Notes under the pieces: generated by a model
What the model was told of the DNA's origin: nothing
The model's input: the letters and a program-made list of their open reading frames with translations, nothing else
Database searches by the model: none
From: Pseudomonadota bacterium
Lineage (GTDB): Bacteria > Pseudomonadota > Gammaproteobacteria > Burkholderiales > Burkholderiaceae_C
DNA: 64,000 bases
Direction: 5' to 3'
NCBI GenBank assembly: GCA_021808445.1
Contig: JAKBBP010000001.1
Location: 1 to 64,000, forward strand
Program-made: the position numbers and the translations under genes
In this document: positions 7,405 to 31,729 of the stretch, one piece after another
Layout: every line of letters begins with the position of its first letter
How positions within the stretch are numbered: the first letter of the stretch is position 1

Positions 7405-7440
7405 GGGCATTTCCCGGGGCATTCCCCGGGGCATTTCCCG
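7405..7440. repeat. Three tandem 12-bp units upstream of the GH13 gene
   Basis: GGGCATTTCCCG / GGGCATTCCCCG / GGGCATTTCCCG. Confidence 0.85.
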
Positions 7441-7598
7441 ATCCCCTGGCGGCCCACCGGAGCCTGAGCGGCCGGCGCCGGGCCTACACTGGCCCGCATG
7501 GAACTGCCGCATTCGCTTGCCCTCTCCAAGGTCTGCCGGCCCGCGCGCGAACCGGACCCGAGCCAGGCCCCGGTCCGTTCTTGTGTCCGGGGCCGTCC

Positions 7599-11836: not shown

Positions 11837-12135
11837 GAGTGACCAAACGCCAGAATGAGCATGCTGGAAAACCATGCATGACCTCGGTGTTATTGCGGAA
11901 TCGCGGGACATTGCGGCCTTGACGGGAAAGCGTAGTATTGGTGGGGACTTGCGTCCGCAGGTGCGCATGGAGTGGCGTGCAGATGTCACGCGGAAATTCT
12001 CCGGAAATCGTGAATCACCTAGAAATCATCGGCGATTAACGGATTCTCTGGGAATGCTTGTATTACCATTTTCAAGAAATGGTTTGCAGGGGGTGCGAAT
12101 ATCGGACTTTTCCCCGTACCGGCACCGAGGTGGCG

Positions 12136-13095
12136 ATGTCTTCCGTATCCTGCTCCTTGAGCATTCCCACGCTGGAAGTCGGCGCCGAGTCGGTGCGCCG
12201 CGCCTTGCAGGCAGCCCGCGTCGCTCCGCAGTCACTGGCCGCGCATCCGGTTCCGCTGCGCGTCGTTCAGCAAGCCGCGCGCGAGGCCATCCGGGAACTG
12301 GCGGCCGCACCCCGCCCCGAGCTCGCGCAGCGCGCATGCCTGGTCCGCTTCGACCCGGGGGCCTGGCCGGCGCTGGACTTCTACCGCTGCGTGCTCGGCT
12401 GCGTGGCCGCACACTGGCTGGGCGCCGGCCAGCCTTACGGCCTGCTCGAGCAGGGGCCGGGAGTGTTCCAGGCGCTCGAGCCTGGAAGTCGCGCCGCGGC
12501 GGGGCAGCAGCCCGGGGTCGAAGGAAGATTCCACACGGAGCTCGCCGCGTTTCGCCCGGCTTTCCAGCCCGAGCTCGTGTCGTTGACCTGCTGTGCGAAC
12601 CGCGTACGGGGCGGGGCTGGCGTGGTCGACGCGGCCGAGGCCTTCGAGGCGCTGACTCCGGCGCTGCGCGAGGTCGCGCAACAGGAGCGCTTTTGCCACG
12701 GGGTGGACGCGGCGCTGGGTGCGGGCTGCGCGGGCAGCAGCGAGGCACGCAGCCTGGTGCGCAAGCTGGAGGGCCAGCCCGAGCAGGGAGTCCTCGCCGC
12801 CGTGGACCTGGCCTGCACGCGCCCGGCACGCGCCGGCGATGCGGCCGCGTTGCGCGTGCTGCAGGAGCTCGACGCGGCCGCTCGGGAGCGTGCCGTGTGG
12901 CTGCAGCTGCAGCCGGGCGACGTGCTGTTCCTGCGCAACCACCGAGTGTTGCACGCATGGCGCGCCCCCCAGGGGGCATGGCGTGCGCTGCGGGTGTACT
13001 GGCGCCAGTCCCTGATCGCACTGGGCAACTTCGCGGGGAGCCCGACGCCGGGCATGTTCAGCGCCGAGCGCGCGCTGCGCCCGCCCGCGCGATAA
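12136..13095 (+). CDS. Fe(II)/2-oxoglutarate oxygenase, TauD/clavaminate synthase-like (AsnO/VioC type)
   Basis: FHTELAAF HxE motif, distal GDVLFLRNHRVLHAW and R-x-Y-W-R. Confidence 0.72.
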   Translation: MSSVSCSLSIPTLEVGAESVRRALQAARVAPQSLAAHPVPLRVVQQAAREAIRELAAAPRPELAQRACLVRFDPGAWPALDFYRCVLGCVAAHWLGAGQPYGLLEQGPGVFQALEPGSRAAAGQQPGVEGRFHTELAAFRPAFQPELVSLTCCANRVRGGAGVVDAAEAFEALTPALREVAQQERFCHGVDAALGAGCAGSSEARSLVRKLEGQPEQGVLAAVDLACTRPARAGDAAALRVLQELDAAARERAVWLQLQPGDVLFLRNHRVLHAWRAPQGAWRALRVYWRQSLIALGNFAGSPTPGMFSAERALRPPAR

Positions 13096-13131: not shown

Positions 13132-13884
13132 CTAGGTTCCGTCGCTCAGCAGATCGACCGCGTACTCGTGGCGATCGGTGTTGACGTAGGAGTGGCGCAG
13201 CTCGACCGCGCGTTCCTTGAAGGAGCGCGCGATGCGCACGACCAGCAGCAGGGGATGGGCGGCCGGCACCCGCAGCAGGTGGGCGCGGGCTGCATCGGCC
13301 TGGGTTGCGCGCACGCGCTCGCGGGTGCGGATCACGTTCACTCCGGCATGCTCCTGGTACAGCTGGTAGACCGTGCTGCGGCGTTCGCGCAGTACGCGCT
13401 CGCTCAGGCGGGGAAACAATTCCACCGGCACGGTGATCTCGTCCACGATCACGGGCTGGTCCTGCAGGCTGAGCAAGTTGGTGTAGCGCCACACCTTGTC
13501 GCCCGGGTGGATGTCCAGCGCCGCCGCGGCGGTCGCGTCGGCCTGGCCGCGCGCGAAGTCGATGAGCTCCACGCTGGGGAATTCGCGCAGCCCGTCCTGG
13601 CGCACGATATGGAAAAAGGAAAAGAAGTACTTGCCGCGCCCATGCGAGGCCACGAAGGTGCCCCGGCCCTGCTGGCGGATCAGCACGTTCTCCGCGCTGA
13701 GTTCGTCGACCGCCTTGCGCACCGTGCCGATGCTCACGGCGAAGCGTTCGCCGAGTTTTTTTTCCGAGGGAATCACCTCGCCCGGCTTCCATTCTCCTGT
13801 GCGCAGGGACTCCAGGATCTTGTGCTTGACCTCCTTGTACAGGTGGTTGCCGAGGGCCTGGCCGGCGTAGAGGGTGTCGCTCAT
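13132..13884 (-). CDS. GntR family (HutC/UTRA) regulator, probable regulator of the suy genes
   Basis: wHTH HKILESLRTGEWKPGEVIPSEKKLGERFAVSIGTVRKAVDEL plus UTRA domain; divergent from suyA. Confidence 0.88.
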   Translation of the reverse strand: MSDTLYAGQALGNHLYKEVKHKILESLRTGEWKPGEVIPSEKKLGERFAVSIGTVRKAVDELSAENVLIRQQGRGTFVASHGRGKYFFSFFHIVRQDGLREFPSVELIDFARGQADATAAAALDIHPGDKVWRYTNLLSLQDQPVIVDEITVPVELFPRLSERVLRERRSTVYQLYQEHAGVNVIRTRERVRATQADAARAHLLRVPAAHPLLLVVRIARSFKERAVELRHSYVNTDRHEYAVDLLSDGT

Positions 13885-13992
13885 GACGGGCAATGGGACG
13901 GAGGTGCTTGCGAGGGACGGCGGTAGGCAGCGACAGGCGCAGGGTGTCTCGAAATCGGTGCTTCGCATTCTACCCGGCCAGTCCTCCAAGTC

Positions 13993-14027
13993 ATCTAGTT
14001 GACCTAGATGATCTAGTTGCCTATGCT
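13993..14027 (+). promoter_or_regulatory. suyA promoter with overlapping three-half-site operator
   Basis: TTGACC (13999-14004) N17 TATGCT (14022-14027); ATCTAG (13993-13998), CTAGAT (14004-14009), ATCTAG (14011-14016). Confidence 0.7.
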
Positions 14028-14088
14028 GCGGCTTGACAACTGCGGCGCGGCACGAAAGCGCGGCGGTTGATCCCACCCGGAGGAAAAA

Positions 14089-14370
14089 ATGATTCACTTC
14101 GTGCTGCATGATGCAAAGGATTCCGTGGCCGTGGTCGTCGTCGAAGGCGTCAAGGCGGGCATGGACCTCAATGGCTGGATCATGGACGAGGACCGCATGA
14201 CCAGCGTCAAGGCCATCCAGGACATTCCCATCGGTCACAAGGTCGCGCTCAAGGACATGGCCCCCGGCGATACGGTGTGGAAGTACGCCGTGGACATCGG
14301 CAAGGTGGTCGCGCCGATCCGTGCCGGCGAGCACGCCCACGTGCACAACATCAAGACCAAGCGCTGGTAA
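14089..14370 (+). CDS. suyA: (2R)-sulfolactate sulfo-lyase small subunit
   Basis: SAF-domain protein [25 protein letters not shown]...[48 protein letters not shown]; adjacent to suyB-like gene. Confidence 0.85.
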
Positions 14371-14404
14371 GCCGCCTGGTTCGCAATCGTCCCGGAGATC
14401 TCCC

Positions 14405-15580
14405 ATGTCCGTCATTTCCCAAGACACCACTTTCCTCGGCTATCGGCGCGAGAACGGCCGCGTCGGGGTACGCAATCACGTCATCATCCTTCCGCTGGAC
14501 GACCTGTCCAACGCCGCGGCCGAGGCGGTCGCCCACAACATCAAGGGGGCGCTGGCGATTCCGCACCCCTACGGACGACTGCAGTTCGGCGCGGATCTGG
14601 AACTGCACTTCCGCACCCTCATCGGCACCGGCTGCAACCCCAACGTGGCGGCGGTGGTGGTGATCGGCATCGAGGATGGCTGGACCCAGAAGGTGGTCCA
14701 GGGCATCCAGGCCACCGGCAAGCCGGTGGTGGGTTTCGGCATCGAGGGCCACGGCGACCACGACACCATCCAGCGCGCCAGCAAGGCGGCCAAGGAATTC
14801 GTGCAGTGGGCCAGCGAGAAGCAGCGCGAGGCCTGCCCGATCCACGAGCTGTGGGTGTCCACCAAGTGCGGCGAGAGCGACACCACCTCGGGCTGCGGCT
14901 CCAACCCCAGCGTGGGCAACGCCTTCGACAAGCTCTACGGCCTGGGCAGCACCCTGTTGTTCGGCGAGACCTCCGAGATCACCGGTGGCGAGAGCATCGT
15001 GGCGGCGCGCTGCGCCAACGACGCGGTGCGCGAACGCTTCATGTTCATGTTCAACCGCTACCAGGACATGATCAACCGCCACAAGACCACGGACCTGTCC
15101 GAGAGCCAGCCCACCAAGGGCAACATCGCCGGGGGCCTGACCACCATCGAGGAAAAGGCGCTGGGCAACATCCAGAAGATCGGCAAGAAGTGCGTGGTCG
15201 ACGGGGTGCTGGACAAGGCGGAGGCTCCCAGCCACGCGGGTCTGTGGTTCATGGATTCCTCTTCGGCTGCCGCCGAGATGGTCACCCTGTGCGCCGCCGC
15301 GGGCTACGCCGTGCACTTTTTCCCGACGGGGCAGGGCAATGTCATCGGCAACCCGATCCTGCCGGTGATCAAGATCTGCGCCAACCCGCGCACCGTGCGT
15401 CTGATGAGCGAGCACATCGACGTGGACGTCAGCGGGCTGCTGCAGCGCGAGATCAACCTGGACCAGGCCGGGGACAAGCTGCTGGAGAGCATGCTGCGCA
15501 CCGCCAACGGCCGCCTGACCGCGGCGGAGGCGCTGGGCCACCGCGAGTTCGTGTTGACCCGGCTGTACGAAAGCGCCTGA
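14405..15580 (+). CDS. suyB: (2R)-sulfolactate sulfo-lyase large subunit
   Basis: UxaA-type large subunit [29 protein letters not shown]...[19 protein letters not shown]...[22 protein letters not shown]; shorter than and context unlike altronate/galactarate dehydratase. Confidence 0.85.
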
Positions 15581-15598
15581 ACGAGGCCATGATTGCGC

Positions 15599-15623
15599 CG
15601 CGCCGGTCCTCGAGGCCGGCGCG
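15599..15623. other. Intergenic hairpin suyB/ABC binding-protein gene
   Basis: CGCGCCGG-N9-CCGGCGCG. Confidence 0.5.
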
Positions 15624-15710
15624 TGGGCCGCCGGCGAAACGGCCCGGCATGCACGACGAGGCGGCGACCACGCTGCCCGCATCTTCGCCTTTCACGGATG
15701 AGGAGACAAC

Positions 15711-16715
15711 ATGAATCATCGCCTGATCGCCGCCGCGCTGTGCGCCGGCCTGAGCCTTGGCGCGGCCTCCGCCGCGCATGCCGAAGTCAGCAAGATCGCG
15801 GTGGCGCGCGAGTACGGCATCAGCTATTTGCCGCTGATGATCATGCAGGACCAGAACCTGATCGAGAAGCAGGCAGCAGCGCGCGGGATCAAGGACCTGA
15901 AGGTGCAGTGGGTCAAGTTCGCCGGCGGCAACGTCATGAACGAGGCCCTGCTGTCGGGAAGCCTGCAGTTCGCCTCGGGCGGCGTGGCACCGATGGTCAT
16001 CGCCTGGGCGCGCACCCGGGACAACTACGGCATCAAGGGGGTGGCGGCGCTGAACTCCATGCCCTTGTACCTCAACACCAACGACCCCGACGTCAAGACC
16101 ATCAAGGACTTCAGCTCGAAGGACAAGATCGGCCTGCCGGCGGTGAAGGTGTCGATCCAGGCCGTGACCCTGCAGATGGCCGCGGAGAAGGCCTTCGGTC
16201 CCGGGCAGGAGCACAAGCTGGACTCGCTGACCGTCACCATGAGCCACCCCGACGCGATGGCGGCGCTGGCATCGCATGCGATCACCGCGCATTTCGGGGC
16301 TCCTCCCTTCGAGTACCAGGAACTGAAGATGCCCGGGGTGCACACGGTACTGAACTCCTATGACGTGCTGGGCGGTCCGGCCAGCTTCAACCTGGTGTGG
16401 ACGACCAGCAAGTTCTACAAGGACAACCCGAAGGTCTACGCCGCCTTCGTCGCCGCGCTCGACCAGGCGATCGACGAAATCAACCACGACAAGAAGGCCG
16501 CGGCGCAGCAGTACCTCAAGGACACGCACGACAAGAAGGATTCGGTCGACTTCATCCTGAAGATGCTCGACGATCCGCAACTGGTCTACACGACCACCCC
16601 GCAGCATGTGATGAAGTACGTGCGGTTCATGCACAAGGTGGGCACCATCAAGGCGCAGCCGAAGTCCTGGAAGGAATTGTTCTTCCCGAACGCGGACAAG
16701 CTGGCCGGCAGCTGA
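15711..16715 (+). CDS. ABC transporter substrate-binding protein, sulfonate/taurine/nitrate type
   Basis: Signal peptide; VAREYGISYLPLMIMQDQNLIEKQAAARG; operon with TauB/TauC-like genes. Confidence 0.85.
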   Translation: MNHRLIAAALCAGLSLGAASAAHAEVSKIAVAREYGISYLPLMIMQDQNLIEKQAAARGIKDLKVQWVKFAGGNVMNEALLSGSLQFASGGVAPMVIAWARTRDNYGIKGVAALNSMPLYLNTNDPDVKTIKDFSSKDKIGLPAVKVSIQAVTLQMAAEKAFGPGQEHKLDSLTVTMSHPDAMAALASHAITAHFGAPPFEYQELKMPGVHTVLNSYDVLGGPASFNLVWTTSKFYKDNPKVYAAFVAALDQAIDEINHDKKAAAQQYLKDTHDKKDSVDFILKMLDDPQLVYTTTPQHVMKYVRFMHKVGTIKAQPKSWKELFFPNADKLAGS

Positions 16716-16730
16716 GGCAGCCCGGCAGGC

Positions 16731-16757
16731 GGGCCGCGGCAGGGAGTGCCGCGGCCC
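16731..16757. other. Hairpin between binding-protein and ATPase genes
   Basis: GGGCCGCGGCA-GGGAG-TGCCGCGGCCC, 11-bp stem. Confidence 0.6.
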
Positions 16758-16801
16758 TTGGGCCGGCCCCGGCCGGCGTCCGAACGACTCGCGTGTCGAG
16801 G

Positions 16802-17617
16802 ATGAACGCAGTGAGCATTCCGCAATCCCAAGCTGCCCCGCAGGTCCTCGTGGACGTGCGGGGAGTGACCCTGCAGTACAAGACGACCAATCACCTGGTC
16901 ACCGCCACCTACCGGGTGGACTTCCAGGTGTGTCGTTCCGACCGCTACATCCTGCTGGGGCCCTCGGGCTGCGGCAAGTCCACGCTGCTCAAGGCCATCG
17001 GCGGTTTCCTGACGCCCACGGAAGGGGAGATCCGCCTGAAGGACCGGGTCGTCACCAAGCCCGGCAGCGACCGCATGATGGTGTTCCAGGAGTTCGACCA
17101 GCTGCTGCCCTGGAAGACCGTCAAGGGCAATGTGATGTTCCCGCTGGTGTCCTCCGGCAAGGTGCGCGGCGCCGAGGCCGAGGCCAAGGCGATGCACTAC
17201 CTGGACAAGGTCGGCCTGACCAAGTTCGCCGATCACCATCCCCACATGCTGTCGGGGGGCATGAAGCAGCGTGTGGCCATTGCGCGCGGCATGGCCATGG
17301 AGCCGGATGTGCTGCTCATGGACGAGCCCTACGCCGCCCTGGACGCGCTGACCCGGCGCAAGATGCAGGACGAGCTCCTGCAACTGTGGGACGACACCCG
17401 CTTCACGGTGATTTTCGTGACCCACTCGATCCCCGAGGCCATCAAGCTGGGCAACCGCATCCTGCTGCTGTCCCCACATCCGGGCCAGGTTCGCGCGGAG
17501 CTCGAGGGGCTGCCGCGAGGACACCATGACCGCGCCGCTGCGGAGGCCCTCGAGTCACGCATCAACGAATTGCTGTTCGCGGGCGAGAGCCTGCACCAGG
17601 AGAGCCAGCATGGCTGA
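16802..17617 (+). CDS. ABC transporter ATP-binding protein, SsuB/TauB type
   Basis: Walker [13 protein letters not shown], signature LSGGMKQRVAIARGMAMEPDVLLMDEPYAALDALTR. Confidence 0.92.
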   Translation: MNAVSIPQSQAAPQVLVDVRGVTLQYKTTNHLVTATYRVDFQVCRSDRYILLGPSGCGKSTLLKAIGGFLTPTEGEIRLKDRVVTKPGSDRMMVFQEFDQLLPWKTVKGNVMFPLVSSGKVRGAEAEAKAMHYLDKVGLTKFADHHPHMLSGGMKQRVAIARGMAMEPDVLLMDEPYAALDALTRRKMQDELLQLWDDTRFTVIFVTHSIPEAIKLGNRILLLSPHPGQVRAELEGLPRGHHDRAAAEALESRINELLFAGESLHQESQHG

Positions 17618-18488
17618 AGGACCCACCGTGACCCTGCAGCGTCCCGAGATCCATCGGGAGCCCACCGATTCCAGTCAGTTCGGCGTGGTGGAAAAGCCGC
17701 TTTCGCGCCTCGAGACCTGCTTCAACAGCGTGGCATTGCGCAAGAGCGTGATCATCGTGCTGCTCGCCCTGGGCTGGGAGATCGGTGCGCGCGCCTTGCA
17801 CAACGACCTGTTGCTGCCCACCTTCTCCTCCACGGTGCTGGCGCTGGTACGCGGCCTGATCAGCGGCGAGCTGCTGCTCAAGATCTGGGTTTCCCTCAAG
17901 GTGCTGCTGATGGGCTACGGCATCGGCGTGGCGCTGGCCGCGGTGCTGACCGGCTTCGGCGTGGCCACGCGCGTGGGCGCCGATCTGCTGGAGACCCTCA
18001 CGGCCATGTTCAATCCGCTGCCGGCCATCGCCCTGCTGCCCATCGCGCTGATCTGGTTCGGCCTGGGGGACGGCAGCCTGGTGTTCGTGCTGGTGCACTC
18101 GGTGGTGTGGGCGGTGTCCCTGAACACCCAGTCGGGCTTCATGGCGGTGTCCAACACCCTGCGGATGGTCGGGCGCAATTACGGTCTGCGCGGCCTGCCC
18201 TACATTGCGAAGATCCTGATCCCCGCGGCCTTCCCGAGCATCCTCACCGGGCTCAAGGTGGGCTGGGCCTTCGCCTGGCGTACCCTGATCGCCTCCGAGC
18301 TGGTATTCGGCGTGAGTTCGGGATCGGGCGGCCTGGGCTGGTACATCTACGAGAGCAAGAACCTCCTGGAGATCTCCAAGGTGTTCGCCGGGTTGCTGAC
18401 CATCATCATCATCGGCCTCGTGGTCGAGAATCTGGTCTTCCACACCATCGAGCGCCACACCGTTCGCAAGTGGGGGATGCAGGCGTGA
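17610..18488 (+). CDS. ABC transporter permease, SsuC/TauC type
   Basis: Hydrophobic; IPAAFPSILTGLKVGWAFAWRTLIASELVFG; overlaps ATPase gene. Confidence 0.9.
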   Translation: MAEGPTVTLQRPEIHREPTDSSQFGVVEKPLSRLETCFNSVALRKSVIIVLLALGWEIGARALHNDLLLPTFSSTVLALVRGLISGELLLKIWVSLKVLLMGYGIGVALAAVLTGFGVATRVGADLLETLTAMFNPLPAIALLPIALIWFGLGDGSLVFVLVHSVVWAVSLNTQSGFMAVSNTLRMVGRNYGLRGLPYIAKILIPAAFPSILTGLKVGWAFAWRTLIASELVFGVSSGSGGLGWYIYESKNLLEISKVFAGLLTIIIIGLVVENLVFHTIERHTVRKWGMQA

Positions 18489-19414
18489 GCAGGATCGTCA
18501 TCAGCGAATTCATGGATGAACAGGCCGTGGATGGCTTGCGCGAGCATTTCGACGTTCGCTATGAGCCCGGCCTGGTGGACGATCCGCAGGCGCTTCGCGA
18601 TGCCCTGCGCGAGGCGCAGGCGCTGATCGTGCGCAATCGCACCCAGGTGCGTGCCGGCCTGCTCGAGCACGCGCCGGGCCTGAGGGTGGTGGGGCGGCTG
18701 GGCGTGGGGCTGGACAACATCGACATGGAGCTTTGCGCGCAGCGCGCCATCCGCGTCATCCCCGCGCTGGGCGCCAACGCGCAGGCCGTCGCCGAATACG
18801 TGATCGCGAGCGCCATGCTGCTGCTGCGCGGGGCCTATGCCAGCAGCGCGCAGGTGGCCGCTGGAGCCTGGCCGCGCGCGGCGCTGTCCGAGGGGCGCGA
18901 GATCGGAGGCAAGACCCTGGGGCTCGTGGGTTTCGGCGACATCGGGCGCCGGACGGCTCGCCTGGCGCAGGCCGTGGGCATGACGGTGGTGGCACACGAT
19001 CCGGCGCTCGCGGCGGACGCCCCCGCGTGGCGCGAGACCCAGGTACGCCGGCTGGAGCTCGATGAGCTGCTCCAGGCCTGCGACGTGCTCAGCCTGCATG
19101 TCCCCCTCACGCCGGCCACGCGCTCGCTTGTGGACGCGAATCGTCTGGCCCGCATGCGCCCCGGCGCCGTGTTGATCAACACGGCCCGCGGAGGGGTGGT
19201 CGACGAGGACGCGCTGGCCGAGGCGCTGCGCTCGGGTCGACTGGCTGGCGCCGCGCTCGACGTGTTCGAGCAGGAGCCGCTGGGCGCCGGCTCGGCCCTC
19301 CAGGGCGTGCCCGGGCTGCTGCTCACTCCCCATATCGCCGGGCTGACGCGGGAGTCCAACCTGCGCGTCAGCAGCCTGATCGCCGACCGGGTGGGAGCCT
19401 TCCTGCGCGGATGA
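18485..19414 (+). CDS. slcC: D-2-hydroxyacid dehydrogenase family, probable (S)-sulfolactate dehydrogenase
   Basis: IVISEFMDEQAV, GKTLGLVGFGDIGRR, NTARGGVVDEDAL; GTG start overlapping permease; context. Confidence 0.75.
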   Translation: MSRIVISEFMDEQAVDGLREHFDVRYEPGLVDDPQALRDALREAQALIVRNRTQVRAGLLEHAPGLRVVGRLGVGLDNIDMELCAQRAIRVIPALGANAQAVAEYVIASAMLLLRGAYASSAQVAAGAWPRAALSEGREIGGKTLGLVGFGDIGRRTARLAQAVGMTVVAHDPALAADAPAWRETQVRRLELDELLQACDVLSLHVPLTPATRSLVDANRLARMRPGAVLINTARGGVVDEDALAEALRSGRLAGAALDVFEQEPLGAGSALQGVPGLLLTPHIAGLTRESNLRVSSLIADRVGAFLRG

Positions 19415-20475
19415 GCCGCGCCCCTGGCCGTCCCGTTTCCCAAGAACCCTCATCGTCAGCTTCCATGTCCGTTCTGAGTCTTTCCCAAGCCACCGAGCTC
19501 GCCGCGGCCGCCCTGCGCGGCGCCGGTGCAGGCGCCGCCATGGCGCAGTCCACCGCGCAGGCCCTGGTCGCCGCCGAGTCGCAGGGCCTGGCCTCGCACG
19601 GCCTCTCGCGCGTACCCCAGTACAGCGCCCACCTGCGCCTGGGGCGGGTCAACGGCAGTGCCCAGGCAAAGGTGATCCACGCCCGCGCGGCGGCCTGCCT
19701 GGTCGACGCCGACGATGGGCTGGCCTTTCCCGCCTGCGAGCTGGCGGTGCGCGAGGCCATGCGGCGCGCGGGTGAATGCGGCAGTGCCTTCGCCGGGGTC
19801 ACCCGCAGCCACCACTTCGGCGCGGCCGCGCACCATCTGATGCCCCTGGCCGAGGCGGGCATGGTGGGCCTGGGCTTCGGCAACTCGCCCGCCGCCATGC
19901 CGGCCTGGGGAGGCAGGCGCGCGCTGTTCGGGACCAACCCCATCGCAGCCGTGTTTCCGCGCCGCGACGCCCCGCCCCTGGTCATCGACCTGTCGCTGTC
20001 GGAGGTGGCGCGCGGCAAGCTCATGGTGGCGGCCAAGGAGGGGCGCAGCATTCCGCTGGGCTGGGCGGTGGACCGCGACGGCCGGCCCACCACGGACCCG
20101 CAGGCCGGGCTGGAAGGCTCCATGCTTCCGGCCGGCGGGGTCAAGGGCGCCATGCTGGCATTGATCGTCGAGCTGCTGTGCTGCGCGCTCACCGGGGCCT
20201 CCTTCGGCTTCGAGGCGGATTCCTTTTTCGTGGACGAGGGCAACCGGCCCCGCATCGGCCAGGCCTTCCTGGCCATCGATCCGGGGGCGCTGGCGGGGGC
20301 GGATGTGTTCCACGAGCGCATCGAGACCCTGCTCGCGGCGATGTGCGCGGACGAAGGGGTGCGCTTGCCGGGCCAGCGTCGATTCGATCTGGCCGCCCGC
20401 GCGCGGCGCGACGGCGTCACGGTGCCGGATGCGCTGGAGCGCCAGTTGCGCGAACTCGCGGCGGCGCACGCCTGA
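19411..20475 (+). CDS. comC: Malate/L-lactate dehydrogenase family, probable (R)-sulfolactate dehydrogenase
   Basis: ESQGLASHGLSRVPQY, VTRSHHFGAAAHH, FGTNPIAAVFP, GSMLPAGGVKG; overlaps slcC; start 19411 or 19465. Confidence 0.78.
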   Translation: MSRAPGRPVSQEPSSSASMSVLSLSQATELAAAALRGAGAGAAMAQSTAQALVAAESQGLASHGLSRVPQYSAHLRLGRVNGSAQAKVIHARAAACLVDADDGLAFPACELAVREAMRRAGECGSAFAGVTRSHHFGAAAHHLMPLAEAGMVGLGFGNSPAAMPAWGGRRALFGTNPIAAVFPRRDAPPLVIDLSLSEVARGKLMVAAKEGRSIPLGWAVDRDGRPTTDPQAGLEGSMLPAGGVKGAMLALIVELLCCALTGASFGFEADSFFVDEGNRPRIGQAFLAIDPGALAGADVFHERIETLLAAMCADEGVRLPGQRRFDLAARARRDGVTVPDALERQLRELAAAHA

Positions 20476-20491
20476 CCCGCGGCCCGCGGCG

Positions 20492-21241
20492 ATGCTCATC
20501 GCCTGGCCGGCCCCCGATGCCGCGCTGGCCGCGGCAGGCGCCGTCATCCTGCTCGCCTACACGGTGTACGGCCTGACCGGCTTCGGCTCGTCGATCACCG
20601 CGGTTCCGCTGCTCACGCAATTTCTTCCGCTGCGGGAGGTGGTGCCGATGATGCTGCTGTTCGACCTCACCGGGGGCATCCTTGTGGGGCTGCGCAACCG
20701 CAGCCAGGTGCAATGGCCTGAGCTCGCACGCATGGCCCCGTTCATGGCCGCGGGCATGCTCCTGGGGCTCAGCCTGCTCCTGTACGCGCCGCAACGGGCC
20801 TTGCTGCTGGCACTCGGGAGTTTCATTTTCGCCTACGCGCTGTGGGCCCTGGTGCTGCGCCCGCCGGTGCGTCCGCTGCGGGCTGCGTGGGCGCTGCCGC
20901 TGGCCTTCGCCGGCGGGCTGTTCACGTCCATGTTCGGCACCGGGGGGCCCGTGTACGTGATCTACCTGGCACGGCGCATCCCCCAGCCCCAGGCCCTGCG
21001 CGCGACCATCAGCACCCTGATCCTCGGAAGCGGCCTGGTACGCCTGCTCCTGTTCTCCTCCGCGGGGCTGTACCACCAGCCGCAGGTGCTTCCCCGCGCG
21101 ATCCTGCTGTTTCCCTGCATGCTGGGAGGGCTGTGGCTGGGCACGCAGCTGCATCGTCGCCTGCCCGCGCATCGTGTCGTGCAGGCGGTGTGGGCGGTGT
21201 TGCTGGCGGCGGGCACCAGTCTGCTGCTGCGCAATTTCTGA
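20492..21241 (+). CDS. TauE/SafE family exporter, probable sulfite exporter
   Basis: YGLTGFGSSITAVPLL and GGLFTSMFGTGGPVYVIYLARR repeat halves typical of TauE/SafE. Confidence 0.85.
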   Translation: MLIAWPAPDAALAAAGAVILLAYTVYGLTGFGSSITAVPLLTQFLPLREVVPMMLLFDLTGGILVGLRNRSQVQWPELARMAPFMAAGMLLGLSLLLYAPQRALLLALGSFIFAYALWALVLRPPVRPLRAAWALPLAFAGGLFTSMFGTGGPVYVIYLARRIPQPQALRATISTLILGSGLVRLLLFSSAGLYHQPQVLPRAILLFPCMLGGLWLGTQLHRRLPAHRVVQAVWAVLLAAGTSLLLRNF

Positions 21242-21267
21242 ACCCGCCAGGACACCTCAGGACCGGC

Positions 21268-22158
21268 TCAGTCGGGCGCGGTGTCGGTGCACAGGGCCCT
21301 CAGGGAGCCGGCCAGCGGGCTGGCGCAGGCCAGCAGGCTGCCGGCCTGCAGCAGGCCGGGGGCCGGATCGATGGGCGCCACGTGGCCGCCCGCCTCGAGC
21401 ACGAGCAGGCTGCCCGCGGCGATGTCCCAGGGCTGCATTCCCCATTGCCAGAAGCCGTCGAGTCGCCCGGCCGCCACCCAGGCCAGGTCAAGCACCATGG
21501 AGCCGCTGCGCCGCAGCCCGGCACAGCGGCGCATGGCACGCAGCAAGGAGCCCTCGAAGCGCTCCAGCAGGGGCGAGCCCGGCTTGGGAAACACCGCCGC
21601 GAGCAGCGCCTGGTCCAGACGCGCGCAGTCGCTGGCGCGCAGGCGTTGGTCGCCGAGCCAGGCGCCGCCACCCGCGCTGGCGTGGTACATCTCGTCGCGC
21701 ACCGGGTCGTAGACCGCGGCGCACACCGGAACGTCGTGCCAGGCCAGCGCGATGGAAACGCAGTAATGCGGCACGCCATGCGCGAAATTCAAGGTGCCGT
21801 CGATGGGGTCGACGATCCAGGTATGGGCGGGTCGGTGCACGCCGCCGTGCGCTCCTTCCTGGAGCCCGCTTTCCTCGCCCAGCACCGCATGGCCGGGAAA
21901 GGCGGCGAGCAGCTCGCGAACGATCAGCGCCTCGGCCTCGCGATCGACGTCCGTGACCACGTCCGCGGGGCCCTTGGCGTGCACCCCCCAGCTGCCGCGG
22001 CGTTGCTGTGCCTCGCGCAGCAGGGCTCCCGCCGCGCCGGCCGCCGCGCGCGCGACGTCCAGGGCCTGTGCAGGCACGGCCTGCGCAGGCAGGCGGCCGG
22101 CCCGCGCAGCACCGTCCCGCGGCGGGCTGCCGGAGGAGGTGCTTCGCAAGGATGTCAT
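21268..22158 (-). CDS. Inositol monophosphatase family protein
   Basis: GPADVVTDVDREAE, GEESG, WIVDPIDGTLNFAHGVPHYCVSIAL; start overlaps the frdA-like stop by 4 nt. Confidence 0.88.
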   Translation of the reverse strand: MTSLRSTSSGSPPRDGAARAGRLPAQAVPAQALDVARAAAGAAGALLREAQQRRGSWGVHAKGPADVVTDVDREAEALIVRELLAAFPGHAVLGEESGLQEGAHGGVHRPAHTWIVDPIDGTLNFAHGVPHYCVSIALAWHDVPVCAAVYDPVRDEMYHASAGGGAWLGDQRLRASDCARLDQALLAAVFPKPGSPLLERFEGSLLRAMRRCAGLRRSGSMVLDLAWVAAGRLDGFWQWGMQPWDIAAGSLLVLEAGGHVAPIDPAPGLLQAGSLLACASPLAGSLRALCTDTAPD

Positions 22159-23921
22159 GCCGGGCCTTGGGCGACCGCGACGGCGGGGCCGGCGTCCAGC
22201 AGGCTCTGGCCCGGACGCACGCGGGAGAACACGACCGGCTCATGCCGCACTTCCGGCTCGCCCTCGATCTCGCGCACCACCGTGTAGGTGGAGGCTTGCA
22301 GGTCCCCCGCGTCGGGGTGGTCCTCGCGGAAATGCGCGCCGCGGGAATTCTCCCGGCTGGCCGCCGCCGCCGTGATGGCGCGGCTGACCTGGATCAGGTT
22401 GCGCAGATTCATCCAGTCGTGCCAGCGCAGGTTGAAGGCGCGGTCGGCCGCGCCGACGCCGGAGGCCAGCAATCGCTCGTGCAGCTCGCGAAGGCGCGCG
22501 CGTGCGCGCGCCAGCCCCGTGGCGTCGCGCAGGATGCCCACGTCGTCCCACATGCAGGCGTAGAGCTGCTCGCGGATCTCCTCCAGGTCGCCCGGAGGCT
22601 GGCGCAGGGGGCGTTCGTGCTCGACCAGCGCACGCGCCACGGCCTGCGCATCCGGCTCGCGGCGTCCGGGGTTGCGCCGCATCCAGGCGGCCATGGTCTC
22701 TCCGGCGATGCCGCCGAAGACGGTGGAGTTGGCCACTCCGTTGCCGCCCAGGCGATTGGCGCCGTGCACCCCGCCGGTATCCTCGCCGGCCGCGAACAGG
22801 CCATGCATGGCGGTGCTGCAATCCGCCTCGAACTCCACGCCTCCCATCATGTAATGGGCGGTCGGGACGACCTCCACCAGCCCGCCGGCAAGATCGAAGC
22901 CACAGTCGGCGCAGCGCTCCACCATGCCCTTGAACTGGCTGCGCACCCGCTCGGCGCCGAGGTGGGACATCTGGATGTACACACCCCCCGCCGGCGTGGT
23001 CCGCCCGGCGCGCATCTCCGCGTAGATGGAGCGCGACACCACGTCGCGCGTGGCGCGTTCGGCACGCGGGTCGTAGTTGTGCATGAAGCGCTCGCCGGCG
23101 CCGTTGAGCAGCCAGCCACCAGCTCCGCGCAGCCCTTCCTCCAGCACCGTGCCGGTCATGCGCGTGTGTTCGCCGGCCAGCAGTCCCGTGGGATGGAACT
23201 GCACCATCTCCATGTCGCGCAGGCGCATGCCGGCGCGCAGCGCCATGGCCAGGCCGTCGCAGCTCTTGTCCCCCGAGGGGGTGTGGAAGCGGTACATGGT
23301 GGGGCCGCCGCCGGTGGCCAGCAGCACCGCGCCGGCGCGAACCAGCACGAAGTCGCCCGTGCGCATGTCGATCATCAGCACCGCGGCCAGGCCGCTGCCG
23401 TCGGCGGCGGGAATCAGCTCCACCGCGCGGTGCTCCTCGAGCCGTTCGATGCCGCGCGCCCAGACCTGTTCGGCCAGGCGGTTGATGATCTCGATGCCGG
23501 TCAGATCCCCCTTGTGCACGGTGCGGTCGAAGGTCTGGCCGGCAAAGGCCTTCTGGTGCACGGTGCCGTCGGGGTTGCGGTCGAAGAAGCAGCCGAGTTC
23601 ATTCTCGAGTTCATGGATGCGCTCCACCGCCTTGGTCACCAGGGTCCACGCCAGGTCCTGGCGCGCAAGCCATTTGCTGCCCTCGATGGTGTCCATGAAG
23701 TGGCGCTCCACCGAGTCGCCGGGGGCCAGTGCCACGTTGTAGCCGCCTTGCACCATGCGGGTGCAACCGCATTTGCCCAGCAGGCCCTTGACGGCCACGG
23801 TGATGGACAGCTCGGGCGCCGCCTGGTGCGCGTGCAGCGCCGCGAACAGTCCGGCTCCACCCGAGCCCAGGATCAGGATGTCGGTATCCAGCTGACGCAG
23901 CCCCGCGAGCTCCGTGCTCAT
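22155..23921 (-). CDS. Succinate dehydrogenase/fumarate reductase-like flavoprotein subunit
   Basis: ILILGSGGAGLFAALHA, QFHPTGLLAGEHTRMTG, VPTAHYMMGGVEF, GANRLGGNGVANSTVFGG. Confidence 0.9.
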   Translation of the reverse strand: MSTELAGLRQLDTDILILGSGGAGLFAALHAHQAAPELSITVAVKGLLGKCGCTRMVQGGYNVALAPGDSVERHFMDTIEGSKWLARQDLAWTLVTKAVERIHELENELGCFFDRNPDGTVHQKAFAGQTFDRTVHKGDLTGIEIINRLAEQVWARGIERLEEHRAVELIPAADGSGLAAVLMIDMRTGDFVLVRAGAVLLATGGGPTMYRFHTPSGDKSCDGLAMALRAGMRLRDMEMVQFHPTGLLAGEHTRMTGTVLEEGLRGAGGWLLNGAGERFMHNYDPRAERATRDVVSRSIYAEMRAGRTTPAGGVYIQMSHLGAERVRSQFKGMVERCADCGFDLAGGLVEVVPTAHYMMGGVEFEADCSTAMHGLFAAGEDTGGVHGANRLGGNGVANSTVFGGIAGETMAAWMRRNPGRREPDAQAVARALVEHERPLRQPPGDLEEIREQLYACMWDDVGILRDATGLARARARLRELHERLLASGVGAADRAFNLRWHDWMNLRNLIQVSRAITAAAASRENSRGAHFREDHPDAGDLQASTYTVVREIEGEPEVRHEPVVFSRVRPGQSLLDAGPAVAVAQGPA

Positions 23922-24538
23922 GCGCGGGCTCCCGTGACGCCCAGCGCGGCCAGCACCTCCGAGCGGCGATCGCGCACTTGCGCGCGGACTTCGTCGTAGA
24001 GGCTGGCCCCGTGGCTGTCCATGCCCACCAGCAGGGGCCCGAAGTCACGGATGCGGAATTTCCACAGCGACTCGGGGTTGAGGTCATCGAGGTCGACGTC
24101 CTCGATCTGTTCGATCCAGGTGCTCTCCAGTGCCGCGGTGCCTCCCACGATGGCCAGGTACACGCCGCCGAGTTCACCCAGGGCGCGAAGCGAGTCCTCG
24201 CGCAGGCCCCCCTTGCCGACGATCATGCGCACGCCATGCTGCTGCATCAGCGGCCGCGTGAAGCGTTCCATGCGATCCGAGGTGGTGGTTCCGATGCACA
24301 CCGGGGCGTAGCCCGCCGGGTAGCGTGCATCCGCGGGTACCTTGCGCACGTTGGGCGCGGTGTGGATCACCGCATGGCCGCGCAGATCGAAGCGCGTGCT
24401 GCGCCCGCGGTCGAACATGTGGATCTGCGTGGCGTCACGGATACCGAACAGCGTCCGCTGCAGGGTCACCGTGTCGCCCACGCGCAGCGCGCGCACCTGC
24501 TCCTCGGTGGCGGGAGTGACGATCTCGTGGTGGGCCAT
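23918..24538 (-). CDS. Class I fumarase / L(+)-tartrate dehydratase beta subunit
   Basis: LRVGDTVTLQRTLFGIRDA, VCIGTTTSDRME, MIVGKGGL; 207 codons. Confidence 0.88.
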   Translation of the reverse strand: MAHHEIVTPATEEQVRALRVGDTVTLQRTLFGIRDATQIHMFDRGRSTRFDLRGHAVIHTAPNVRKVPADARYPAGYAPVCIGTTTSDRMERFTRPLMQQHGVRMIVGKGGLREDSLRALGELGGVYLAIVGGTAALESTWIEQIEDVDLDDLNPESLWKFRIRDFGPLLVGMDSHGASLYDEVRAQVRDRRSEVLAALGVTGARA

Positions 24539-24543
24539 GGTCT

Positions 24544-25419
24544 TCAGAACCCCCATTGCACGCCGGCCGCGCTCAGGCGCGCGCTGGCGCGGCGCGCCGA
24601 GTGGCATTGCATGTTCACGGCCACCGGATTCATGGTGATGTGGGTGGCGGCCAGCTCGATGTGCACGGCAAAGGAGGTGGAGTCTCCGCCCAGGCCCTGC
24701 GGTCCCACGCCCAGGCCGTTGACGGCCAGCGTGAGCTGGCTCTCCAGTGCGGCGCCATCGGGGTCCGCGCATGTCGTGCCCAGCGCCCGCGTGGCGGCCC
24801 GCTTGGCGAGCGCGACGCACAGATCCGAGGTTCCGCCGATGCCCACGCCGACGATGGTGGGCGGGCAGGTCTTGCCCCCGGCGGCGATCACACAGTCGAC
24901 GACAAAGGTCTTGATGGCATCGATGCCCTCCGCCGGAATCGCCATCTTGAGGAAGGAGTTGTTCTCCGAGCCGCTGCCCTTGGGGATCATCTCCAGTTCC
25001 AGAACGCCCGGGGCGTCGATGAAGTCGACATGGATCACCGGGACCTCGATGCCGCAGGAAGTGTGCTCGTTGCGCCGGGTCAGCGGATGCACCACGGAGG
25101 AGCGCAAGGGATGCTCGCGGGTGGCACGCTCGCAGCCGCGGCGCACCGCGGCCTTCAGCGCATGGCCGTCGAAGCGCAGGCCGCTGCCGATGCGCAGGTT
25201 GTAGATGGGCACGCCCGTGTCCTGGCACAGCAGGTTGTCTGTGCGCTCGGCCACCTCGATGTTGGTGACCATGGTGCGCAGCACCGACTTCGCGCGCCCC
25301 GAGGTCTCCGAGGCCTGCAGGCGCGAGAAGCCCTGCTTGATGTCGGGAGGCAGCATCTTGAGCGCGCGTAGGTAAAGCTCGCGCGCGATGTCCTCGACCA
25401 CCTGTGCTTGTACGTCCAT
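24544..25419 (-). CDS. Class I fumarase / L(+)-tartrate dehydratase alpha subunit
   Basis: LLCQDTGVPIYNLRIG, GSGSENNSFLKM, CPPTIVGVGIGGTSDLC. Confidence 0.9.
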   Translation of the reverse strand: MDVQAQVVEDIARELYLRALKMLPPDIKQGFSRLQASETSGRAKSVLRTMVTNIEVAERTDNLLCQDTGVPIYNLRIGSGLRFDGHALKAAVRRGCERATREHPLRSSVVHPLTRRNEHTSCGIEVPVIHVDFIDAPGVLELEMIPKGSGSENNSFLKMAIPAEGIDAIKTFVVDCVIAAGGKTCPPTIVGVGIGGTSDLCVALAKRAATRALGTTCADPDGAALESQLTLAVNGLGVGPQGLGGDSTSFAVHIELAATHITMNPVAVNMQCHSARRASARLSAAGVQWGF

Positions 25420-25444
25420 GTCCGTGCGTTCCTTGTCGCGCCGC

Positions 25445-25828
25445 TCAGCCCAGCAGCGCCAGCGCGTAGGCCATGCCGGCGGCCAGCGCGACCCCCAGCG
25501 AAAGGGCGATCCAGTCCTTGCGCAGCCCCGACCAGGGGCCGAACTCGATCAGCAGCAGCCGAAGCCCCCCGGTCATGTGCAGGGCCAGCAGGCTGACCAG
25601 CCCCCATTCGGCCACGTGTACCAGCGGCTGGTCGGCCCAGCGCACGAAGCCCTGCAGCGCATCGGCGCCGTGCAGCGCCTGCCCGAGGGCCCAGAAGTGC
25701 AGGGGCAGGAAGACCGCGAGCAGCAGTCCGGATACCCGATGCAGCCAGAAGGCCCACCAGGCGGGGTGGCGACGCGCGCGCAGATCATTGCGCCGGCGCG
25801 TCGGGCTCGCAGGGCTGCTCAGGCCCAT
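25445..25828 (-). CDS. SDH/FRD cytochrome b-type membrane anchor
   Basis: 127 aa, three hydrophobic segments, ARRHPAWWAFWLHRVSGLLLAVFLPLHFW and LLALHMTGGLRLLL. Confidence 0.75.
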   Translation of the reverse strand: MGLSSPASPTRRRNDLRARRHPAWWAFWLHRVSGLLLAVFLPLHFWALGQALHGADALQGFVRWADQPLVHVAEWGLVSLLALHMTGGLRLLLIEFGPWSGLRKDWIALSLGVALAAGMAYALALLG

Positions 25829-26181
25829 GTCAGCCCCCAGACAGCGCGCAGCCCTGCCGCCAGCAAGAGCACGGAGAACACCGCGCCCAGCGCGAGGGCC
25901 GCTCGCTCGCTCCAGCCCAGCCATTCCTCGGCGATGCGCGCCACCCCCACCGGCACATGCGCCGCGCAGGCCAGCACGAACAGGGCGTAGAAGGCGGCGA
26001 AGCCCAGGCTGTGGTGCAGGCGGCTCAGGATGGCCTGGGCGCTCAGGCCCTGGCGCACCGCCAGCACGATGATCACCAGGTGGGCCAGCACCAGCGGGGC
26101 CAGCAAGGCGGCGCTGGCCCTCTGCAGCAGCCACAGGCGCGATTGCAGCCGGGCGGTGCCGGCAAGGGACTGCGTGCTCAT
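25819..26181 (-). CDS. Second SDH/FRD membrane anchor subunit
   Basis: 120 aa, three hydrophobic segments, conserved His residues; overlaps both neighbours. Confidence 0.72.
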   Translation of the reverse strand: MSTQSLAGTARLQSRLWLLQRASAALLAPLVLAHLVIIVLAVRQGLSAQAILSRLHHSLGFAAFYALFVLACAAHVPVGVARIAEEWLGWSERAALALGAVFSVLLLAAGLRAVWGLTWA

Positions 26182-26912
26182 GGCCGCGTCCTCAGGCTCA
26201 GGCGCTTGAGCCCGGCCATGGCGCCTGTCGGGGCGATGCCCTTGGGACAGCGCTCGGTGCAGGAACCCTGGGTGTGGCAGGCATGGCAACCGCGGTTGCC
26301 CGAGACCGCCTGCAGGCGGGCTTCGCGCTGTACGTCACGCTCGTCGTTGACCAGGGTCCAGGCGCGGTTCAGGGCGGCAGGGCCGAGGAATTCCGGGCGC
26401 CAGGAGACCACGTCGCAGGAACCGTAGCAAACCCCGCAGCCGATGCATTCGATGCCGGCATCGGCCGCGCGGCGCCGGGCGCTGGCCGGATCCACCCGCG
26501 CGAAGTCCTCATGGCGGCTTCGGCTGCCGTGGAATCGGCCCATGGCGCCGGCCCATTTGTCGAAGAACTCGCGCATGTCCACTGCCAGGTCCTTGATCAC
26601 CGGCAGGTTGGGCAGGGGTGCGATCTCCAGCTCGCCGGCCGCCGAGGCCACCCGCGACACGTGGGTGCGGCAGGTCCAGCGCGCCACGCCGTTGACCTGC
26701 ATGGCGCAGGAGCCGCACATGCCCACACGGCAGGCATAGCGATAGCTCAGATCCGGGTCGAGGCGGCGCTGGATGTAGGTGACCACGTCGAGCACGGTCT
26801 GGCTGGGCAGGCGGGGTACCTCGTAGCGCACGAAGTCGCCGCTGTGCTTGCCGCGCCAGACCGACACACGCAACACGGCCGGGGCGGAATCGGGATCGGG
26901 GGCGGCGGACAT
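26178..26912 (-). CDS. SDH/FRD-like iron-sulfur subunit
   Basis: YACRVGMCGSCAMQVNGVARWTC [2Fe-2S], CIGCGVCYGSC [4Fe-4S], CHACHTQGSCTERCPKG [3Fe-4S]. Confidence 0.92.
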   Translation of the reverse strand: MSAAPDPDSAPAVLRVSVWRGKHSGDFVRYEVPRLPSQTVLDVVTYIQRRLDPDLSYRYACRVGMCGSCAMQVNGVARWTCRTHVSRVASAAGELEIAPLPNLPVIKDLAVDMREFFDKWAGAMGRFHGSRSRHEDFARVDPASARRRAADAGIECIGCGVCYGSCDVVSWRPEFLGPAALNRAWTLVNDERDVQREARLQAVSGNRGCHACHTQGSCTERCPKGIAPTGAMAGLKRLSLRTRP

Positions 26913-26931
26913 GGGGAAGCGCGGCGAGAGG

Positions 26932-26947
26932 CAATGCGAAGGCATTG
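26932..26947. promoter_or_regulatory. CAATGC-GAAG-GCATTG dyad 20 nt upstream of the iron-sulfur subunit start
   Basis: 6-bp perfect arms in the divergent intergenic region. Confidence 0.4.
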
Positions 26948-27039
26948 TGGTGGAGTCCGAGGAAAATCAAAAGCGAATGTTTGTTTGTGCCAGACCAAGA
27001 AAAACTTTAGGATGAGCCTTTGTCCCGGGGCTCCCTGCC

Positions 27040-27933
27040 GTGTCGTCCATCCGCAGCCTGCGCACCTTCCTGGCCGTCGCCCGCCTGGGCTCCTTCGCCG
27101 CGGCCGGCGCCGAGGTGGGCCTGACCGCGGCTGCCGTGGGGCTGCGCATGCGTGCGCTGGAACAGGACCTGGGCCAGGCGCTGTTCGAACGCGGCGCGCG
27201 CTCGGTGCTGCTCAACCCCGGGGGCCGGGCCATGGTCGGGCGGGTCGAGCAGATCCTGAGCGCCTACGATGCGCTGGCCGGGCAGGAGGATGACGGCAGC
27301 CTCAGCGGGACCGTGGTCGTGGGCGCGCTGGTCTCCGCCCTGATGGGAGCCTTCGCCGATGCCCTTCGCGCCGTCAAGCGCGACCACCCCCGTCTGCAGG
27401 TGAAGATCTTTGCCGGGCTGTCCAGCGACTTCGTCGCACGCGTCGAGCGCGGCGAGCTCGACGCCGCGGTGGTCACGCGCCCTCCCCAGGGGCTGCGCCC
27501 GGGGCTGCGCTGGACCGAGCTGTACACGGAGCCGATGGTGCTGATCGTGCCGCGCAAGCCGCAATTCGAACTTCCGGCCCAGGTGCTCGCCACGCTGCAG
27601 CAGGCACCGTTCATTCGCTTCGACCGTCACACCTGGACCGGCCTGCTGGTCGACGAAGTGCTGCGCCGCTGTGGCGCGCGCTCGCGTGACGAGATGGAGC
27701 TCAACTCGGTGGAGGCGATCATCGAGATCGTGCGACAGGGCTTCGGGGTGTCCATCGTGCCCCGCCTGGCCCATGTGAACTGGAGCGGTGACCGGGCGCT
27801 TCGGGTGCTGGAACTGCCGGGGGCCAGGGTGCAGCGGCGCGTCGGCCTGATCGAGCGCGCCAGCCACGCACGCAGCGGCTTCACGGAGGCGATCAAGCGC
27901 CACCCCTTCGTGCCCGTGGACGAAGCCGGCTGA
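27040..27933 (+). CDS. LysR family transcriptional regulator
   Basis: N-terminal wHTH IRSLRTFLAVARLGSFAAAGAEVGLTAAAVGLRMRALEQDLG; GTG start; divergent from the SDH/fumarase operon. Confidence 0.92.
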   Translation: MSSIRSLRTFLAVARLGSFAAAGAEVGLTAAAVGLRMRALEQDLGQALFERGARSVLLNPGGRAMVGRVEQILSAYDALAGQEDDGSLSGTVVVGALVSALMGAFADALRAVKRDHPRLQVKIFAGLSSDFVARVERGELDAAVVTRPPQGLRPGLRWTELYTEPMVLIVPRKPQFELPAQVLATLQQAPFIRFDRHTWTGLLVDEVLRRCGARSRDEMELNSVEAIIEIVRQGFGVSIVPRLAHVNWSGDRALRVLELPGARVQRRVGLIERASHARSGFTEAIKRHPFVPVDEAG

Positions 27934-29148: not shown

Positions 29149-29167
29149 GACGGAGTCGTTCCGATCA

Positions 29168-31706: not shown

Positions 31707-31729
31707 TACCCATCGATCCACGTTCCATC

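Follow-up and report, generated by a model that had tools for sequence, protein, structure and literature searches.

The window analysed here comprises positions 1-64,000 of contig JAKBBP010000001.1 (GCA_021808445.1) from a member of the Burkholderiaceae_C, and the region studied within it (13132-27933) contains two gene units that converge with a stop-to-stop distance of 26 bp. The plus-strand block (14089-21241) encodes SuyA-like and SuyB-like proteins, an NMT1-type ATP-binding cassette (ABC) importer, a 2-hydroxyacid dehydrogenase, an Ldh_2 dehydrogenase and TauE. The minus-strand unit (26912 to 21268) is compact, its neighbouring genes overlapping or separated by gaps of at most 25 bp, and encodes an FrdB-like protein, two Sdh_cyt anchors, the alpha and beta subunits of a fumarase, an FrdA-like protein and an inositol-monophosphatase-family (IMPase) protein. 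An earlier note on this DNA had described a sulfolactate cluster on the plus strand converging on a complex-II/fumarase operon on the minus strand, and every gene was found where it had been placed (Table 1). The complex-II-like and fumarase-like genes, here called the frd-ttd module, very probably constitute a sulfonate module, as argued below.

Table 1. Genes of the studied region of the window, followed by module loci on plasmids of other organisms (locus handle with positions)
Feature	Position	Strand	Basis or remark
GntR/UTRA regulator, divergent from suyAB	13132..13884	-	Pfam GntR + UTRA; start codon at 13884
SuyA-like small subunit, putative (R)-sulfolactate sulfo-lyase	14089..14370	+	93 aa; weak match to galactarate dehydratase N-terminus, E 5e-07
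SuyB-like large subunit, putative (R)-sulfolactate sulfo-lyase	14405..15580	+	Pfam GD_AH
ABC importer substrate-binding protein, NMT1 family	15711..16715	+	Pfam NMT1_2 + NMT1
ABC importer ATPase	16802..17617	+	Pfam ABC_tran
ABC importer permease	17610..18488	+	Pfam BPD_transp_1
SlcC-like D-2-hydroxyacid dehydrogenase	18485..19414	+	Pfam 2-Hacid_dh; no curated equivalog reached
ComC-like sulfolactate dehydrogenase (Ldh_2)	19465..20475	+	Pfam Ldh_2; NF040650 best NCBIfam match, below cut-off
TauE/SafE-type sulfite exporter	20492..21241	+	Pfam TauE
IMPase-family gene, end of operon, overlaps frdA	21268..22158	-	Pfam Inositol_P
FrdA/SdhA-like flavoprotein, proposed 3-sulfopropionate dehydrogenase	22155..23921	-	Pfam FAD_binding_2 + Succ_DH_flav_C
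TtdB/FumA-C-like hydratase beta subunit	23918..24538	-	Pfam Fumerase_C
TtdA/class I fumarase-like hydratase alpha subunit, proposed sulfoacrylate hydratase	24544..25419	-	Pfam Fumerase; NF004885 fumarate hydratase above cut-off
SdhC-like cytochrome b556 membrane anchor	25445..25828	-	TIGR02970 above cut-off
SdhD-like membrane anchor	25819..26181	-	Pfam Sdh_cyt
FrdB/SdhB-like iron-sulfur subunit	26178..26912	-	Pfam Fer2_3 + Fer4; three cluster motifs all legible
LysR regulator, divergent from module operon	27040..27933	+	Pfam LysR_substrate + HTH_1
Haloarchaeal FrdA/SuyAB/ArgH-family lyase loci	L183:13203-16653; L185:10284-13659		
Clade-2 modules with methylmalonate-semialdehyde dehydrogenase	L186:13911-18815; L190		plasmids of MPC6 and P-10

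A sulfolactate sulfo-lyase is marked by neighbouring SuyA and SuyB subunits from the UxaA/GD_AH family; both are present at the locus, and the SuyA-like gene lies immediately 5' of SuyB in relatives as well. The SuyB-like protein is 84.7% identical to a UxaA protein encoded beside hpsN/hpsO in Cupriavidus pinatubonensis HN-2. The SlcC-like and ComC-like proteins belong to the families (2-Hacid_dh, Ldh_2) expected of a sulfolactate dehydrogenase pair with opposite stereospecificities, an assignment made by family, and L-sulfolactate dehydrogenase 2x06 is the second-best solved relative of the ComC-like protein. The GntR/UTRA gene is frequently retained beside suyAB in relatives. SuyA, SuyB, two dehydrogenases, an importer and TauE are likewise the parts of the sulfolactate degradation systems with SlcC/ComC known from Chromohalobacter, Paracoccus and Cupriavidus; to these the window adds the complex-II-like and fumarase-like module, proposed to be a further feeder of the sulfolactate node.

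Elsewhere in the host genome are genes for a typical SdhA (806 bits, exceeding the curated cut-off), for two fumarases, one of the FumC type and the other a further PF05681 member, and for a NadB-like protein. Since it thus has a separate succinate dehydrogenase (SDH) and separate fumarases, the frd and ttd copies in the window are extra paralogues, and a housekeeping role for them was ruled out. The FrdA orthologues form a sharply delimited group: in a family sample of 301 genomes, 13, including the window's own, encode one, the other 12 at 69-88% identity, and the remainder reach at most 39%. Among named relatives, Thiomonas sp. FB-6 comes closest (FrdA 91%). The LysR gene keeps its position beside the module operon in many relatives. 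The IMPase gene, which the earlier note had named with the SDH and fumarase genes as one operon, lies there in the closest relatives only; being confined to them, it was ruled out as a part of the pathway.

Like complex II of E. coli (SdhABCD, FrdABCD), the window module has a flavoprotein, an iron-sulfur subunit with its motifs and two membrane anchors, and its FrdA shares with the E. coli enzymes the catalytic His, Arg and Glu residues and the fold; an AlphaFold model superimposes on E. coli fumarate reductase (FRD) with a template-modelling (TM) score of 0.82. It differs in that FrdA is about 32% identical to the E. coli enzymes, scores below the curated flavoprotein cut-offs (429 bits versus 567 for TIGR01812, 501 versus 718 for the TfrA model) and sits in the tree with its subfamily on a separate long branch. 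FrdA residues were surveyed in 120 orthologues and 17 outgroup sequences, numbered by E. coli SdhA. The equivalents of H242, E255, R258, R286, H354 and R399 are retained in 119-120 of the 120 orthologues. The position of T254, which in SdhA contacts one substrate carboxylate, is Glu in all 120 (Glu261 in the window) and Thr in 16 of the 17 outgroup sequences; an insertion between the H242 and T254 positions bears Arg or Lys in all 120 (R254 in the window); and the position of H45, the covalent flavin His, is Cys in every orthologue (Cys53 in the window). Judged from residue conservation, one end of the pocket is thus intact and the other rebuilt, which would fit a substrate with one carboxylate and one different acid group.

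In the hydratase, the class I cluster cysteines C65, C185 and C272 of TtdA are conserved, D67 and R106 are present, and the beta subunit has R89 and K109. The cluster cysteines and core active-site residues are common to the two-subunit class I fumarase/L-tartrate dehydratase family (PDB 7xky, E. coli TtdAB). The window hydratase is 29-34% identical to E. coli TtdAB and differs from it also in genomic context: among 80 named loci, 40 are flanked on each side of the module by 9 kb or more, and in 39 of these 40 full-flank loci TtdAB of the window type is encoded together with the FrdA subfamily.

The association of the module with suyAB was assessed in the family sample at an FrdA orthologue threshold of at least 74% identity. 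SuyB is encoded in 39 of the 301 genomes; it is present in 11/11 genomes with such an orthologue versus 28/290 others (Fisher p=4.4e-11), a p-value that overstates independence since the sampled genomes are related. The two orthologue-bearing genomes without SuyB (G183 and G267) have the most divergent FrdA (69%); in G183 the hydratase is a different one (36%), and no hydratase is seen on the short contig of G267. Among the full-flank loci, suyB lies within 10 kb of the module in 30 of the 40, at least one of suyA, suyB, slcC and comC is present in 32, and 36 have one of these genes, TauE or an ABC importer. Of 17 loci lacking suyB in the examined stretch, 14 belong to genomes that carry it at another place; the genome searches for these 17 found no SuyB for L058 (a metagenome-assembled genome), L078 (Pseudomonas sp. 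Q2-TVG4-2) and L118, which belongs to a sister clade of the module (clade 2). Named genomes of the window's own clade (clade 1) encode SuyB in 61 of 63 cases assessed, 47 of them within the examined stretch and the other 14 at a different place.

There are 27 distinct gene arrangements that combine SuyB with FrdA. Six loci (L096, L108, L110, L112, L115 and L123) are single co-directional units, one order type being suyA-suyB-frdB-sdhD-sdhC-ttdA-ttdB-frdA-comC, and in L057, L070 and L121 an ABC importer is inserted inside the frd-ttd operon. This variety is a stronger argument for the link than the p-value. The co-occurrence and layout counts rule out a chance neighbourhood, so the connection between the two operons that the earlier note had inferred holds, and the module, far from being common in genomes without suyAB, is nearly absent from them in the window's lineage.

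The link recurs in Pseudomonadota, Actinomycetota and haloarchaea, with several instances on plasmids. Methylobacterium radiotolerans pMRAD01 carries in one run FrdBDC-TtdAB-FrdA, a thiamine diphosphate (ThDP) enzyme, TauE, SuyAB, DctA and SlcC-like and ComC-like proteins. On Paracoccus versutus pTAV3, a span of 30 kb takes in the module, YeiH, TauE, ComC-like, SlcC-like and HpsN/HpsO-like proteins and SuyAB, with a sulfite oxidase farther along. The actinomycete plasmid pRHL1 of Rhodococcus jostii combines SuyAB, a YihU-like protein, SlcC, ComC, a GabD-like protein, FrdB, FrdA (54%) and TtdAB (50-54%). In the archaea Natribaculum luteum and Haloarcula sp. GH36, plasmids carry SuyAB, TauE, FrdA (48%), FrdB and an ArgH-family lyase replacing TtdAB. 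The T254-to-Glu exchange and the inserted Arg/Lys occur in the Rhodococcus and haloarchaeal FrdA as well. The haloarchaeal lyase scores above the argH cut-off and also matches, far under its cut-off, the XcbC model (phosphosulfolactate metabolism). The ArgH family belongs to the fumarase superfamily, and another hydratase-like gene in the place of TtdAB points to a need for the hydration step as such.

Partner genes point to the acid that enters the module. On the conjugative plasmids of NT-25 and NT-26 (L184:10480-24569; L191), which also carry YeiH and TauE, the module is followed by a tripartite ATP-independent periplasmic (TRAP) importer, a gene resembling sulfolactaldehyde-3-reductase (YihU-like; 324 bits, cut-off 348) and one resembling succinate-semialdehyde dehydrogenase (SSADH). 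Judged from their families, these partners would be expected to convert 3-hydroxypropanesulfonate (3-HPS) to 3-sulfopropanal and on to 3-sulfopropionate (3-SP). SSADH-like genes also lie near four clade-2 modules. The SSADH-like and YihU-like partners favour 3-sulfopropionate over sulfosuccinate as the substrate.

Gene content and orthology, together with the conserved co-localisation and the signature in the active site, lead us to infer a substrate, direction, regiochemistry and stereochemistry for the module. The ABC importer would take up a C3 sulfonate. FrdABCD, as a dedicated complex-II-like enzyme, would oxidise 3-sulfopropionate, the sulfonate isostere of succinate, to 3-sulfoacrylate and pass the electrons to quinone, and TtdAB, as a dedicated class I fumarase-type hydratase, would add water to sulfoacrylate to give 3-sulfolactate; succinate, fumarate and malate would by analogy correspond to 3-sulfopropionate, sulfoacrylate and sulfolactate. 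SuyAB would split sulfolactate into pyruvate and sulfite, TauE would export the sulfite, and SlcC and ComC would interconvert the sulfolactate enantiomers via sulfopyruvate. That the module acts on 3-sulfopropionate, with sulfolactate as its product in this organism, we consider probable. The earlier note had proposed SDH and fumarase chemistry for 3-sulfopropionate; the chemistry fits, with the substrate deduced from context and the regiochemistry of the hydration tentative. Fumarases give L-malate, which is (S). With CH2SO3 in place of CH2COO, the same geometry should be (R) by the priority rules, and fumarase-like stereochemistry would yield the L form, (R)-sulfolactate, the substrate of SuyAB. 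As SuyAB is (2R)-specific (PMC11489063), the product could enter it directly. The position of the module beside SuyAB and aldehyde dehydrogenase genes favours the oxidative direction.

The degradation of 3-HPS and 3-SP is described as unreported apart from one thesis (PMC11489063). According to the account of that thesis (J. Mayer, Konstanz) in PMC11489063, Roseovarius nubinhibens ISM uses homotaurine via 3-SP, sulfoacrylate and sulfolactate, a chemical sequence identical, as far as that account goes, to the one proposed for the window. The pathway, called undescribed in the earlier note, is therefore not new in its chemistry, as the thesis is cited; no assignment of genes or enzymes to the steps from 3-SP through sulfoacrylate to sulfolactate was found in the open-access literature, subscription papers and theses lying outside the search. 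In Paracoccus wurundjeri grown on sulfofucose, an 11-gene 'fumarate and tartrate' cluster (cluster 3), with TauE as gene 7, was raised together with SuyAB/SlcC/ComC, and the authors tied it to the Krebs cycle (PMC12421959). Seven clade-2 loci share the order FrdB-SdhD-SdhC-FrdA-TtdA-TtdB-TauE-LysR-TctC-TctB-TctA, equal to cluster 3 in gene number (11) and in the position of TauE (seventh), and cluster 3 likely reflects co-induction of the module, the match being by gene order. Since the breakdown of sulfofucose leads to sulfolactate and not to 3-sulfopropionate, sulfolactate may be the inducer.

Several points weigh against this interpretation. A flavin-site Cys in all 120 orthologues would favour the reductive direction, unless the Cys binds flavin adenine dinucleotide (FAD). 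Glu in place of the former Thr does not readily suggest a ligand for a sulfonate, and the structural model is of low quality around the altered end of the pocket (predicted local distance difference test, pLDDT, <50), so that no pocket geometry was taken from it. In a search of the window proteins with NCBIfam-type profiles, no curated sulfolactate model exceeded its cut-off, the ComC-like protein scoring 206 bits against the L-sulfolactate dehydrogenase model NF040650 (cut-off 500); SuyB, SlcC and ComC are putative identities drawn from homology and neighbours. Fumarase-type carbanion chemistry might sooner place the hydroxyl on the sulfonate-bearing carbon. The match to the Paracoccus cluster concerns how many genes there are and how they are ordered, and not their sequences. 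It should be mentioned that with E. coli GabT as the query, a homotaurine aminotransferase was not reliably found beside the module, one weak match being the only one.

The regiochemical point leads to the sister clade. In a family sample of 298 genomes from the Rhodobacteraceae/Paracoccaceae, the family of L118, 34 encode FrdBDCA at 62-72% together with another TtdAB of about 34% identity, which has CGDT or CADT where clade 1 has CQDT. No suyAB was found inside the examined stretches of these 34 loci, and their association with SuyB is weak (10/34 vs 42/264, p=0.049). On a plasmid of Pseudomonas sp. MPC6, a methylmalonate-semialdehyde dehydrogenase gene (695 bits, cut-off 448.5) overlaps the end of ttdB, with a sulfite oxidase nearby, and on a plasmid of Cupriavidus sp. 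P-10 such a gene lies beside the clade-2 module. By gene content, this arrangement suggests desulfonation without a lyase, and in the sister branch sulfite may be set free directly, by way of malonate semialdehyde. For the module in general, the corresponding alternative is that the same dehydrogenation is followed by addition of water to the sulfonate-bearing carbon of sulfoacrylate, giving a malonate semialdehyde bisulfite adduct and from it malonate semialdehyde and sulfite, with SuyAB unneeded for this substrate. It draws on clade-2 TtdAB mostly lacking suyAB nearby and often accompanied by TauE or YeiH exporters, on the genes beside the MPC6 and P-10 modules, and on a carboxylate being the better carbanion stabiliser. 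Clade 1, however, has suyAB in nearly every genome and often in one transcription unit, which favours the sulfolactate route there; the window island is without a malonate-semialdehyde dehydrogenase, and the adjoining malonate decarboxylase genes have a different function and are adjacent in close relatives only. We regard this alternative as unlikely.

An altered pocket at one end of FrdA and transporters that vary among module loci (ABC, tripartite tricarboxylate, TRAP and DctA families) would also suit another sulfonated dicarboxylate analogue, such as sulfosuccinate, or another C3 sulfonate feeding sulfolactate or sulfite into the same node. The SSADH-like and YihU-like partners, however, indicate a C3 acid formed from an aldehyde, and sulfosuccinate would not yield sulfolactate by these two steps, so such a substrate appears decidedly unlikely. 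As to direction, E. coli FRD lacking the flavin His loses succinate oxidation and keeps fumarate reduction. The Cys of the FrdA subfamily resembles such variants, and the module would be induced on sulfofucose, a source of sulfolactate, if the Paracoccus match is correct; both would agree with operation in reverse, from sulfolactate through sulfoacrylate to 3-sulfopropionate as an electron sink. This objection to oxidation could lapse if the Cys formed a bond with FAD or if the redox couple were a different one. The module sits with SuyAB, which uses up sulfolactate for carbon, the upstream aldehyde dehydrogenase genes would produce the acid rather than consume it, and many of the module-bearing hosts are Burkholderiales genera known as aerobes; the reverse reading is thus highly improbable. 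Finally, the family names (SDH/FRD, fumarate hydratase) and the SDH/FRD fold would allow an ordinary succinate, fumarate or tartrate operon standing beside a sulfolactate cluster by accident, but the co-localisation is repeated across phyla, housekeeping SDH and fumarases are separate in the host, and the FrdA subfamily is distinct, with its long branch and altered pocket, which leaves this reading extremely improbable.

Some neighbouring genes are noted here. HpsN-like (78-82%) and, mostly, HpsO-like genes of 2,3-dihydroxypropanesulfonate (DHPS) degradation occur near the module or suyAB in L039, L055, L056, L061, L069, L073, L079 and L081. L078, a clade-1 module whose genome has no SuyB match, is accompanied by TauE and a TctC-like protein. 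In 27 loci of clade 1 and about 12 of clade 2, the module has as a neighbour the gene for a ThDP enzyme with similarity to 2-hydroxyacyl-CoA lyase and acetolactate synthase (for example L114:580-2256, L043:4522-6147, L152:16513-18261 and L182:13727-15352); no orthologue was found in the window's genome (best 31%), so this enzyme is not required here. A gene annotated as 3-sulfinopropanoyl-CoA desulfinase is located near the module on a Sulfitobacter plasmid (L188:24403-25575). In the window, a TauD-family dioxygenase gene (12058-13095, plus strand) adjoins the GntR gene, and an alpha-amylase-family protein is encoded at 5542-7512 on the minus strand. Behind the module on the plus strand (29167-36649) is a malonate decarboxylase cluster (mdcA, mdcB, beta, gamma, mdcH-like and a major facilitator superfamily transporter), which adjoins the module in two near relatives only and is unlikely to be part of the pathway.

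The desulfonation node is known and the chemistry leading to it had already been proposed; what would be new, judging from sequence comparison, are the assignment of enzymes to that chemistry and a further branch of complex II. We see about even chances for a broader view, in which a widespread complex II branch (Pseudomonadota, Actinomycetota, haloarchaea) is a respiratory 3-sulfopropionate:quinone oxidoreductase paired with a sulfoacrylate hydratase that was recruited from three or more sources (two types of TtdAB, a lyase of the ArgH family), with one branch supplying sulfolactate to SuyAB and the other releasing sulfite directly via malonate semialdehyde. Annotation pipelines currently label these genes succinate dehydrogenase and fumarate hydratase; the FrdA-subfamily marker HPTGLL...[RK]...EEG with GCTRMVQGGYN could be used to trace C3-sulfonate turnover in genomes and metagenomes. 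If the proposal is true, the window genes would supply the missing enzymes of 3-sulfopropionate breakdown, complex II would gain a new class of substrate, and a proteomics cluster hitherto tied to the Krebs cycle would be explained.

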